Source of the DNA: a virus | Direction: 5' to 3' (one strand) | Length of the DNA stretch: 27,584 nt | Virus record (IMG/VR): IMGVR_UViG_3300044858_001713 | Span: 1-27,584 of that record | Shown here: positions 23,513 through 26,862 of the stretch, piece by piece | Layout of the letters: each line of letters starts with the position of its first letter | How positions within the stretch are numbered: position 1 is the stretch's first letter | Position numbers and translations under genes: made by a program | Notes under the pieces: model-generated | The model's input: the letters and a program-made list of their open reading frames with translations, nothing else | What the model was told of the DNA's origin: nothing | The model's database searches: none

Positions 23513-24825
23513 AGGTATCTTTTAAGTATTGCGTTCACAAAGTAACGAAAACAATCTAAAAAGTCGGCACGCTCTGAAATGTTTTTTCGATTGCTCTTTA
23601 TTATTTGCCCTTCAGCGTTACACTGCACTTGCTTTGCATCAAATACAAACCCTTTGCAGTTTTTACTATTTACGCGAATATCGAGTTTCTTTAGCGCGGT
23701 ATTGCAATCAATACGGCTATTAACGTGGCGCGGGTTCGCTGGTATTATAATTTGATTATCGGCTAACTTGAGGCGGCGTTTAATCTGAATGTATGCGCTC
23801 GAGTTATCGCGTTCCTGTATTGTACCGCCTTTGCCCATTGCGTCGCCCGTTATGCGTATTAAGCCCGTTGGGATGTTCAACGCCTCAACCGCATCGCAAA
23901 ACGCATCTATCGAGCCGCGCTCTATCTTTATTTCATCCACTACCATAGCCGAGCTGCCAACGTTTTGAATAAGTAAAGCGCATAACGGGTTAATGTTAAA
24001 ATCGACGCTTATAAACGTCGGTAAGTGCGCGTTGTGCGTTACACTATCGTCGATATGCTTTTCGTCGCTCCACGCGTATAAGAACGGGTTAGCAACGTCA
24101 TCGAGTACATCCCAGTCGCCCTCAACAAATCGAGCGTATTGAATAGGCGGCAATTCTTTTAACGCGTCTAAGTATTCGGGCGCGATGTGTGGGTTATCAG
24201 TTATGCGGCTCGGTATGTACGCCCAACGCTCGGGTAATGTGTTTTCGCGGTATCGGTTGTATATAATCGACTTAACCCAATTTTGCGCAGGATTGCACGT
24301 TGCGAGGCAAACGATAGGCGGCTTACCGTGCGCCTTATTCCATGAGCCTATACGTTCCTGAACTTTGTAGAACGTTACTTCCTGCAGTTCGTTTACTTCA
24401 TCTAAGCCCGCCCCGTTAATCTCTAAACCTCGAAAGCGATTTAAGTCTTTATCATCGTCAAACGATTCTGCCATAAAGATAAGCTCAGAGCCGTTTGTAA
24501 AAGTTATAACGTTCGTTTCCCTATTCCAGTTCTTAACGTAGCTACTTACCCCGTCCATCATTATCGAGGCAAAGCTCGGAAACGTTGTGCGCTTTAGGTC
24601 GGGTAGGCTTTTACGAATAACCGCCCACCGGCTGCGCGGATAGTTTAAACAAAGCGAGGTTAGCGTTAAAAGTAACCAATAGGTTTTACCGCCGCGAATC
24701 TTTGCCCCCGCCGTTTCCAGCAGGGGCGGTTATCGTATAGCGCCCCCGAAGACAATTACTCTTTTGTCCCCGTTGGTCGCCATGTCGAAGGCTGTTGTTT
24801 GTGTTTCAGTTAGCGTAAATTGCAT
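23509..24825 (-). CDS. terL: Terminase large subunit, interrupted at Walker A by a 39-base stop-containing insert
   Basis: Motor of DNA packaging: ATPase plus nuclease. ATG 24825 overlaps the HNH gene by 20 bases. Codons 1-31 end ...VFGGAIR, followed by TAA and a 39-base segment (24732-24694), after which the same frame continues GGKTYWLL... . Without the segment the protein has 425 residues, normal for this family, and reads GGAIRGGKT (27-35), a perfect P-loop. Walker B is GLDEVNE (D129, E130), the coupling motif TCNP is at 163-166, and nuclease Asp candidates are D262 (SVDF) and D315 (TGDA). The first ATG after the insert (24561) would remove the P-loop. Ribosome bypassing is the most economical route to a working enzyme; readthrough would also stay in frame but spoil the loop. 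Confidence 0.88.
24694..24732 (-). other. Candidate translational bypass segment in terL
   Basis: 39 bases, about 64% GC, in frame length (13 codons), beginning with TAA. It folds into a 10-bp stem (24727-24718 with 24713-24704, two U-G pairs) closed by a GAAA tetraloop. The codon before it is CGA (Arg, after ATA Ile) and its last codon is CGC (Arg, after ATT Ile), so a peptidyl-tRNA-Arg leaving CGA can re-pair on CGC, where the 3-base downstream frame resumes. A competing 6-bp stem GGGGCG/CGCCCC (24746-24741 with 24728-24723) would hold the CGA and TAA in its loop. Take-off codon, adjacent stop, hairpin and cognate landing codon are the elements of T4 gene 60. Confidence 0.7.
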
Positions 24826-25330
24826 ATCCTTTATTTAGCCTCTTTACTGATGAAATAGAACAGTTATATAAATCGGCTATTATTTGGTTTTTAACGCCTT
24901 CAGATTTTAGTTTTACAATAGCCTCAATACTTTCTTTAGTTTGCTTACAACGGCTGCTTTCGTGTAGGCGCTTTGGCTTTGATAGCCCGTTTTCATATGC
25001 GTGCTTTACGTTTTCTGAATTATTAACCCACTCTAAATTATTTATGGCGTTATTCAACTTATTGCCGTCTTTATGGTTTACTTGAGGTTTATTATTAACG
25101 TTTTCAATGAACGCCATAGCAACAAGCCTATGTACTTTTAAAGTACTTAGTTTACCATTAATCATTATCGCTACGCGCTTATAACCTTTCTTATCGATAG
25201 CTGGTTTCAATAGTTTGCCTTTTAATTTTAAAGGCTGCTTTCGCGTTTCTACTATCCTATCAATACTGCGAACGTTTCCTAAATTAGAAACCTCGTATCC
25301 GCTTTCAAATACTTTCCAAATTTCAATCAT
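24806..25330 (-). CDS. HNH homing endonuclease (NUMOD4-HNH-HTH)
   Basis: 174 residues. Residues 4-25 form a NUMOD4 DNA-binding motif (IWKVFESGYEVSNLGNVRSI); 65-112 form an HNH_3 nuclease core (VHRLVAMAFIENV ... VNHKDGN ... NLEWVNNSENVKHAY); 130-168 resemble a DNA-binding helix-turn-helix. Such free-standing enzymes cut intron-less or insert-less alleles and spread by repair. The gene is AT-rich (about 32% GC by count of two lines) compared with roughly 45-50% in its neighbours, a sign of transfer. It separates the two terminase genes, overlapping the small one by 8 bases and terL by 20, so it also supplies the terL ribosome-binding region (AAAGGAT). Confidence 0.93.
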   Translation of the reverse strand: MIEIWKVFESGYEVSNLGNVRSIDRIVETRKQPLKLKGKLLKPAIDKKGYKRVAIMINGKLSTLKVHRLVAMAFIENVNNKPQVNHKDGNKLNNAINNLEWVNNSENVKHAYENGLSKPKRLHESSRCKQTKESIEAIVKLKSEGVKNQIIADLYNCSISSVKRLNKGYAIYAN

Positions 25331-25637
25331 TCTTTTCTTTTGTTTCGGTGCGAATGATAACCAACGGCTCGGTCGTGGTTATGGTATTATCAATGCTTTG
25401 CTTCGGTTTACCGTATGCGCGGTCTAACAATAGCTCCGCAGCCCTTACGTCGCCCTTTGCTGCGCGTGCGCGGATTGCTTTCAATATCGCTTCGCCTGCT
25501 GTTACGCCGTCCTTTTCTTCGCCTAACACGTCTGCTAACAACTTGTCAAGTTCGGGTAGCTTACGCGGTCGCCCGTTAGGGTTTCCCGTTTGCCCTTTCT
25601 TAAACTTATGCGGTATTACGTTTTCAGGTTTTGGCAT
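25323..25637 (-). CDS. Terminase small subunit-like protein
   Basis: 104 residues from ATG 25637 (MPKPENV); an ATG at 25670 would add 11 residues that lie over the methyltransferase end. The N-terminus FKKGQTGNPNGRPRKLPEL is the Gly-Arg-Pro motif of the DUF5681 family, common just before large terminases, followed by a helical region (DKLLADVLGEE ... AILKAIRARAAKGDVRAAELLLDRAYGKP). It would recognise packaging DNA. Its stop overlaps the HNH gene start by eight bases, as if the HNH gene had been placed exactly between it and terL. Confidence 0.75.
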   Translation of the reverse strand: MPKPENVIPHKFKKGQTGNPNGRPRKLPELDKLLADVLGEEKDGVTAGEAILKAIRARAAKGDVRAAELLLDRAYGKPKQSIDNTITTTEPLVIIRTETKEKND

Positions 25638-26862
25638 CGCTGTTTTTTCGCTGTAAATACGGTTGCCCATTGCGCTTAATCGTAAGCGTTGGGTCGAGTT
25701 TAATCATGCGGTCTATTATTACTTGGCAGTACTTCGGGTCGAGTTCCATGCCGTAGCATTTGCGTTTAAGTTGGTGTGATGCTACCATTGTTGAGCCGCT
25801 GCCGAGAAATAAATCAGCAACTATATCGCCTTGCTTTCCCCATTTATTAAAAAACCATTGAGGTAACAATGAAGGCTTTTGTGTAGGATGATGCCTTTTA
25901 TGGTCAAACTCTTTTTCTGTTCCAAATATTCCTGCCCATTTTACCCTTGCTATATCTCTTTTATGTTTTGTTTTACTCCAGCATAATTCAAAACAACTTC
26001 CGTACATTTTATCAGAATTATCATCTGCTTGTAAATCATCATTACCATTTGCTCTTTTATCCCATACTACCCAACTACCTTCATTTTTATTAGGAAGCAA
26101 CTCTGCAAAATAATCTGCACCCCATATAAAAATTTCTTTGGTATCTGAAAAACAAGCAAAAATTGTATTAATAAGTTCAGGTGTAAAATCATCATGGTCT
26201 CCTATAACATTATCATATTTTTTACCTCCCTTAACTCCTTTATCTCCAAAAAAAGATAAACTACTTTTAGCTCCACTATAATCTGCATTTAGTTTCATTC
26301 CATATGGCGGGTCAGTAAACACCATATCCGCCTTCTGCCCATCCATTAACTTTGCCACTGCATCGCTATCAGTCGAATCCCCACAAAGCAAACGATGCTC
26401 ACCAATCTCGAATATGTCTCCAAGTACGATGTCGGTTTGTATTTCATCAGGTACTTCGTAATCGTCCTCAACGGCTTCGAGTGCTTGCTCTGTTTCGAAG
26501 CTTGGAATATCCAAGCCCCACGCATCGAGCTGCTCGGTGTCCCATTCGTTTTGTAGCATCGCCCAATCCCACTCGCCGCCGCTTACGTTATCCTTAATTA
26601 TAAATTCGCGCTTTTGAGCCTCTGTAAGCTCGCTTGCCTTCATAACGTGTACTTGCTTTAGCTTAGCAGCTTTGCACGCCTTAAAACGCATATTACCGCC
26701 TAAAATAACGTTATTCTCGTCCACGACTATCGGGCGATACTTTAGCATATCGGGAAACTCCTTAATCGATTGCACCAGCTTATCGAACTTTTCATCTTTT
26801 ATAATGCGCGGGTTATTCGGGTTAACCGTTAGCTCGGATATGTTTATTAGTTGTACGCTCAT
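25624..26862 (-). CDS. ParB-like domain fused to a beta-class DNA methyltransferase
   Basis: 412 residues. Residues 1-100 are a ParB/sulfiredoxin-like domain (INISELTVNPNNPRI ... RPIVVDENNVILGGNMRFKA). Residues 145-390 are an amino-methyltransferase with the catalytic motif IV DPPY at 184-187 before the SAM-binding motif I DLFLGSGS at 350-357, the order of beta-class enzymes; HPTQKP lies at 325-330. It would methylate adenine or cytosine amino groups in DNA, protecting phage DNA from host enzymes. The segment between motifs, about residues 189-335 (26298-25858), is clearly different in base composition: about 32% GC with almost no CG dinucleotides. This covers the target-recognition part and suggests it was exchanged. 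Confidence 0.9.
   Translation of the reverse strand: MSVQLINISELTVNPNNPRIIKDEKFDKLVQSIKEFPDMLKYRPIVVDENNVILGGNMRFKACKAAKLKQVHVMKASELTEAQKREFIIKDNVSGGEWDWAMLQNEWDTEQLDAWGLDIPSFETEQALEAVEDDYEVPDEIQTDIVLGDIFEIGEHRLLCGDSTDSDAVAKLMDGQKADMVFTDPPYGMKLNADYSGAKSSLSFFGDKGVKGGKKYDNVIGDHDDFTPELINTIFACFSDTKEIFIWGADYFAELLPNKNEGSWVVWDKRANGNDDLQADDNSDKMYGSCFELCWSKTKHKRDIARVKWAGIFGTEKEFDHKRHHPTQKPSLLPQWFFNKWGKQGDIVADLFLGSGSTMVASHQLKRKCYGMELDPKYCQVIIDRMIKLDPTLTIKRNGQPYLQRKNSDAKT

Follow-up and report, generated by a model that had tools for sequence, protein, structure and literature searches.

The stretch analysed here, referred to as the window, is the whole of a viral DNA of 27,584 nucleotides (nt; IMG/VR record IMGVR_UViG_3300044858_001713), and its minus strand carries a gene for the large terminase subunit (terL) that is interrupted within the ATP-binding P-loop. 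The gene reads MQFTLTETQTTAFDMATNGDKRVIVFGGAIR, then a TAA stop codon, then PPLLETAGAKIR and then GGKTYW..., all in a single frame. An earlier note on this DNA had described VFGGAIR, the stop, 39 bases and GGKT in the same frame, and its coordinates are exact (Table 1); the 10-bp stem with a GNRA-type loop that it placed within the segment, with GAAA as the loop, is found in the minimum-energy fold. The mechanical list of open reading frames (ORFs) places the start of this terL only at 24561, an example of how the start of a phage terminase can be misplaced in gene calling by such an insert. An AlphaFold model of the terL protein of an uninterrupted relative (L015), which is of low confidence (predicted local distance difference test score 56) and names the fold only, places a strand-loop-helix at GGAIRGGKT and has solved terminases as its best structural matches, and a sequence search of solved structures with the same protein gave no match. 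The arginine codons at the two borders of the interruption are called here the take-off and landing codons, after the reading proposed below.

Table 1. Features at the interrupted terL locus of the window, with predicted roles
Feature	Position	Strand	Basis
NUMOD4/HNH homing-endonuclease-like gene, directly upstream of terL and overlapping its start	24806..25330	-	Pfam NUMOD4, HNH_3
terL start codon, inside the 3' end of the HNH gene	24825	-	translation
terL 5' part, start to take-off codon, 31 aa ending VFGGAIR	24733..24825	-	translation; conserved in relatives
5' stem-loop in terL coding sequence, its 3' edge one base short of the take-off codon	24737..24783	-	pairing in 37 rows; synonymous recoding
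Arms of the 5' stem-loop: lower stem ATGGCGACC/GGGCGCTAT; upper stem CGGGGACAA/TTGTCTTCG		-	
Predicted take-off codon CGA (Arg)	24733..24735	-	CGA in 46/46 insert loci
TAA stop immediately 3' of the take-off codon	24730..24732	-	translation
39-nt insert (predicted coding gap, through the end of the landing codon)	24694..24732	-	absent from 89/135 distinct terL regions
Gap hairpin, 10-bp stem GCCCCTGCTG/CGGCGGGGGC, GAAA loop	24704..24727	-	minimum-energy fold; covariation
Predicted landing codon CGC (Arg)	24694..24696	-	CGA 21, CGT 14, CGC 11 in 46 inserts
terL 3' part, GGKT (from 24693) onward, 394 aa	23509..24693	-	Pfam Terminase_6N; PHROG terminase large subunit

Homology searches of IMG/VR with terL, the best 80 matches of each being kept, together with a DNA pattern scan, yielded 135 distinct terL upstream regions; the window and L002 do not differ across the compared stretch and count as a single one of these. 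The site is uninterrupted in 89 of them, VFGG[ASG]IR standing directly before GGKT, and bears an insert in the other 46, the window included; no third arrangement was found among the 135. The alignment of related genes with and without the 39 bases, which had been proposed as a check, places both states at the same site. These numbers are no measure of prevalence, because the pattern scan enriches for inserts; in the set obtained by homology only (best 80 kept), 19 of 80 loci carry one. As the site is interrupted in 46 of 135 regions, and the contigs bearing inserts derive from 43 sequencing datasets even when the window's own is excluded, neither chance nor a slip of assembly explains it. Six hits were dropped as chance (the pattern hits L084, L096, L099, L105 and L106, and also L262) and one because its contig ends in the hairpin (L107). 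Among isolated phages (50,697 records) the region had no match by blastn, and the terL protein matched 157 records, all below 60% identity. A pattern-limited scan of GTDB contigs found one terL relative, at 29%, in Fibrisoma montanum, and among 395 genomes of that organism's phylum only that genome was matched again (E 1e-30). No description of this element was found in the open-access literature, among the matches listed.

The inserts are 39 nt long in 19 regions, 40 nt in one and 41 nt in 26, and comprise 26 distinct sequences, every one ending in a CGN codon directly before GGKT. Since GGKT follows the landing codon directly at each length, the frame of re-entry varies among loci, which excludes stop readthrough. 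The two codons that precede the insert are ATA CGA in all 46 cases, compared with ATA in 33, CGA in 40 and both together in 12 of the 89 uninterrupted genes (Fisher p 2e-12 for CGA alone, without kinship correction). A relaxed scan permitting any ATN CGN returned 48 stretches, of which 47 were insert stretches already in the set and one was a hit by chance; no alternative take-off codon appeared. At the landing site CGG, AGA and AGG are absent from all 46 inserts (Table 1), and AGA or AGG occupies the matching site in 8 of the 89 uninterrupted genes. CGA, CGT and CGC are all read by the inosine-bearing tRNA-Arg, for which CGA is the weakest partner (inosine-A wobble); by this decoding, and with the host tRNA set assumed, the take-off and landing codons are compatible with one tRNA in all 46 inserts. 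Two Ile-Arg codon pairs had been taken as brackets of the segment, and the ATA before the take-off CGA is indeed invariant, but no constant Ile precedes the landing codon, where the bases vary. A stop right after take-off, likened to that of phage T4 gene 60, holds for the window but is no constant of the family: the reading frame first meets a stop at codon 1 in 15 inserts, at codon 2 in another 8 and at codon 8 in the other 23.

The gap hairpin is a constant part of the insert. Its stem, of 9-11 bp, begins 5-6 nt past CGA and carries a GNRA loop in all 46 inserts (GAAA in 39, GCAA in 6, GTAA in 1), with one internal mismatch, as judged by eye, in 8 of them; in the window, the 161-nt region folds with a z of -4.36 against 200 shuffles. 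In an alignment of 37 distinct rows, which retains L090 (whose 11-bp stem is unalignable; it enters all counts and is excluded from the covariance model only), 93.5% of the cells are paired, as against at most 58.1% with slid partners, and the covariation score is 0.469, as against at most 0.076. Two-sided changes occur at five of the ten pairs, and the cells with double changes amount to 61, compared with 23.6 after shuffling, both this number and the covariation score exceeding shuffling in 500 of 500 trials. A covariance model of the insert matches strongly just once per record in 16 of 16 insert records, and no strong extra copies were found across 25 records, the best match in the nine that are insert-free having an E of 0.013.

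The coding sequence on the 5' side of the take-off codon also appears to be shaped by RNA pairing. RNAalifold predicts a long hairpin 5' of CGA, whose lower stem closes just 5' of that codon and whose upper stem is some 12 nt away from the codon on the same side. Over the 37 rows, 95.6% of the cells in its 18 pairs remain paired (at most 55.1% when slid), with a covariation score of 0.200 (at most 0.100 when slid) and two-sided changes in 31 cells, compared with a shuffled mean of 6.1; at the pair of columns 40 and 57, a third codon position, G-C, A-U, U-A and G-U are all seen. The fold of this region beats that of synonymous recodings in all 27 distinct insert-bearing regions (z -2.31 to -4.90, mean -3.58), whereas the same test on 81 uninterrupted regions gives a mean z of 0.15, a lowest value of -2.35 and eight values below -1 (ten in a second random recoding run on uninterrupted loci). 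Two uninterrupted genes, L165 and L167, have a 5' region that still outfolds its synonymous recodings (z -2.14 and -2.49), and these could possibly be cured sites or sites ready to receive an insert.

Selection on the protein is seen on both sides of the insert. The ratio of nonsynonymous to synonymous polymorphism (pN/pS) is 0.265 over the 25 codons before the insert, as compared with 0.333 in uninterrupted genes, although the conservation of this N-terminal part could be explained by RNA pairing alone; over the 44 codons after landing it is 0.203, as compared with 0.207. The latter value bears out the view of the earlier note that the terminase is not a decayed gene. A search of 16 whole insert records found one terL in 15, in one case split over contig ends, and two in a 52-kb record. 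In the latter (IMGVR 3300044695_002763, 52,227 bases), one terL is uninterrupted and the other has a 39-nt insert (L005, L020), and the record may be either two joined phage genomes or a true double copy. Downstream of the insert, L112 has a nonsense codon after ...DFNINPL, and L133 has lost about 41 codons and carries a frameshift.

Of the 43 insert loci whose upstream sequence extends to 700 nt or more, 21 have a NUMOD4/HNH gene ending inside the terL start, compared with none of 88 uninterrupted loci (Fisher p 1e-12, without kinship correction). On a tree of the downstream part of terL, built by a quick method from 132 rows (L093, L094 and L115 were too short and were left out; 39 of 129 inner branches are weak), no fewer than 25 changes of state are required for the insert and no fewer than 17 for the HNH gene. 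Third-position identity over the last 60 nt up to take-off is 0.61-0.73 in insert pairs and 0.27-0.33 in uninterrupted pairs, the pairs being 60-80% identical downstream, and it drops right after landing to about the uninterrupted level; the moving unit therefore appears to be the 5' part of terL together with the insert. Taken at the level of sequence, these patterns indicate that the insert spreads from phage to phage and that a homing-endonuclease-like gene is often its neighbour.

The 39 bases are thus very probably a programmed gap that ribosomes would bypass, in the manner of T4 gene 60, within a mobile cassette lodged in the ATPase loop of the terminase. Ribosome bypass accounts for the 39-, 40- and 41-nt lengths, the CGA rule, the covarying stem-loops, the constraint downstream, the mostly single terL and the HNH association. 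The suggestion that a tRNA-Arg could leave at CGA and land on CGC, already made in the earlier note, gains support from these lengths and codons, from both stem-loops, from the coding constraint and from the HNH link; that description had the gap hairpin and the matched Arg codons right, and had missed the 5' stem-loop and the upstream HNH gene. Comparison among relatives is what establishes the site, the lengths in all frames, the codon rules, both stem-loops, the two-sided coding constraint, the HNH link and the repeated gain or loss.

From this comparison we infer that a bypass takes place, how efficient it is, which tRNA and which motor step serve it, and that the HNH enzyme is involved in cleavage and protection, as follows, the tRNA and ribosome features of the host being assumptions. 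The ribosome would read 31 codons and arrive at CGA with peptidyl-tRNA-Arg in the P site, where the GC-rich GNRA hairpin 5-6 nt further on would block the A site or make it pause. With the upper 5' stem already at the mRNA exit, the weak CGA pairing, an inosine-A wobble, would break, and the lower 5' stem would then close and pull the mRNA, a step that has been put forward for T4 gene 60. The same tRNA-Arg would re-pair with the CGN codon 36-38 nt on, so that GGKT would be read in its own frame and an intact Walker A loop, GGAIRGGKT, would result. Recombination would carry the insert and the 5' part of terL from phage to phage, and in many phages the neighbouring HNH endonuclease would be the driving force; the insert probably protects the target of this enzyme.

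Several findings weigh against this interpretation. The insert regions share ancestry, so the counts are non-independent and the p values, as given, lack a kinship correction; the 75-nt upstream region forms ten clusters at 90% identity. The number of pairs with double changes, as distinct from the number of cells, does not clearly exceed shuffling in the gap hairpin (5, compared with a mean of 4.6; 314 of 500 shuffles as high) or in the 5' stem-loop (3, compared with 1.9; 96 of 500 as high). Avoidance of AGA and AGG at the landing codon reaches just p 0.05, and in 23 of 46 inserts the first stop comes only at codon 8. A 3' stem-loop gave no signal: over the first 60 nt past landing the RNA folds no better than synonymous recodings, the mean z being 0.70 for 45 insert genes and 0.14 for 89 uninterrupted ones. 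Finally, seven of the 46 insert-bearing genes are cut by contig ends, and two of the 39 full-length ones are broken downstream, compared with none of 89 uninterrupted genes.

The alternative that survives best, although with only a slim chance of being right, is excision at the level of RNA, in which a very small intron or an enzyme-made cut would restore the P-loop and the stem-loops would be splicing signals. It permits all three insert lengths and the selection on both sides, but it predicts neither an invariant CGA with a terminal CGN nor a 5' stem that reaches the take-off codon. No Rfam family was matched at gathering score in the window, the group I and group II intron models included, and the long-range pairs that RNAalifold draws across the insert are only five (columns 16-22 with 115-120), with no double changes; we know of no phage intron of such shortness. 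That a selfish insert has inactivated terL, leaving the phages defective or served by another terminase, is very improbable. The two broken genes among the 39 would fit it, but a single terL in 15 of 16 insert records, with the 52-kb record as the exception, the post-insert pN/pS equal to that of uninterrupted genes, the retention of a covarying hairpin with a matched codon and the spread of the inserts over many lineages all speak against it.

Two separate proteins, or a restart of translation past the insert, are hardly credible: in 23 of 46 genes the first in-frame start ahead of codon 45 is a TTG or GTG, and in three an ATG occurs ahead of that codon, but in 43 the first ATG stands at codon 45 or later, and the earliest possible start is codon 7, past GGKT, so that no restart product would hold the whole P-loop; nor does restart predict the codon rule or the 5' stem-loop. 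Stop readthrough or an altered code, which would add 13 residues to the P-loop and suits the in-frame 39 nt of the window, can be given practically no credence, being refuted for the family by the 27 of 46 inserts (40 or 41 nt) that would shift the frame, while TAA ends 10 of the 27 window ORFs counted (TGA 14, TAG 3) and therefore works as a stop there.

As to the gene neighbourhood, more distant relatives of the HNH gene occur at at least 80 loci, and the element was not found in the 18 downstream regions inspected, of which L192 is cut at the contig end. A 7-bp hairpin with a GNRA-like loop beside one such relative (L199) was rejected, as it is AT-rich and far downstream, unlike this element. 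In the insert-bearing L169, about 150 extra bases lie between a DUF5681 gene and terL, some 132-279 bases before GGKT, and repeat the first terL codons near their end. In L102, whose terL bears the insert without the usual HNH gene, an ORF lies about 1089-1470 bases before GGKT; its cysteines and histidines are paired, and by eye it looks like another HNH-type protein. In the insert-bearing L088, L092, L102 and L115, no DUF5681 match is present and terL is preceded by another gene, which by eye is a possible small terminase subunit; the element thus occurs in different gene neighbourhoods. Elsewhere on the minus strand of the window (25624-26862) lies a DNA methylase gene (N6_N4_Mtase), the N-terminus of which matches ParB_N just below the curated cut-off.

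Beyond the single locus, it seems probable that these inserts form a family of mobile translational introns in environmental phages, made up of a 5' stem-loop in coding sequence, an invariant and weakly pairing CGA take-off codon, a GNRA gap hairpin and a CGN landing codon, which ribosomes would skip and which HNH homing endonucleases would carry into an essential gene, at its ATP-binding motif, in any frame and with landing on any codon of one inosine-reading tRNA. This suggests that mobile elements can reside in essential genes through being skipped in translation. To our knowledge, no long programmed bypass other than that of T4 gene 60 has been well proven in bacterial systems, and from a lone case general rules cannot be told apart from its own history. 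The terL element offers natural variation: gaps of three lengths, 26 different insert sequences, three codons for landing, upstream sequences in ten clusters, loci with and without the endonuclease gene, and many close relatives free of the insert as controls, so that the roles of the 5' stem-loop, the stop codon, the codon match and the nascent peptide become directly testable.

The systems compared here are taken as described in the available excerpts of the cited papers. In the tape-measure gene of mycobacteriophage Corndog, an HNH gene likewise adjoins a phage gene with a suggested bypass, an ACG start having been suggested as well (PMC4351075); the excerpt mentions no hairpin family for it. 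A bypass is also suspected in the terminase gene of Streptomyces phage Hau3, but over a much shorter gap and tied to UUA decoding rather than to the skipping of a harmful insert (PMC5009743). Mitochondria of Magnusiomyces capitatus contain inserted nucleotide blocks that translation passes over, as predicted for terL, but at 81 sites and seemingly independently of mRNA context (PMC5009743), whereas the phage records have one strong site each (16 of 16) and a strong context. T4 gene 60 uses parts similar to those of the terL element (PMC11194080, PMC5009743, PMC3014915), including a 5' stem-loop, located before the take-off codon, to which a pull on the mRNA is ascribed (PMC5009743, PMC11194080). 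The terL element shares such a stem-loop and a gap hairpin near take-off, and the HNH gene adjoining its insert recalls mobA, the HNH gene between T4 genes 39 and 60, although mobA is separated by ORF 60.1 and the terL HNH gene lies directly upstream. The two differ in that a 3' stem-loop was looked for without success over the first 60 nt past the terL landing codon and the terL stop is often not adjacent to take-off; in that the gap is 50 nt in T4 and 39-41 nt here; in that T4 passes from Gly GGA to GGA, and terL would pass from Arg CGA to CGN, where the landing codon need not match; and in that a topoisomerase gene of one phage is concerned in T4, and the terminase P-loop at 46 distinct loci here.
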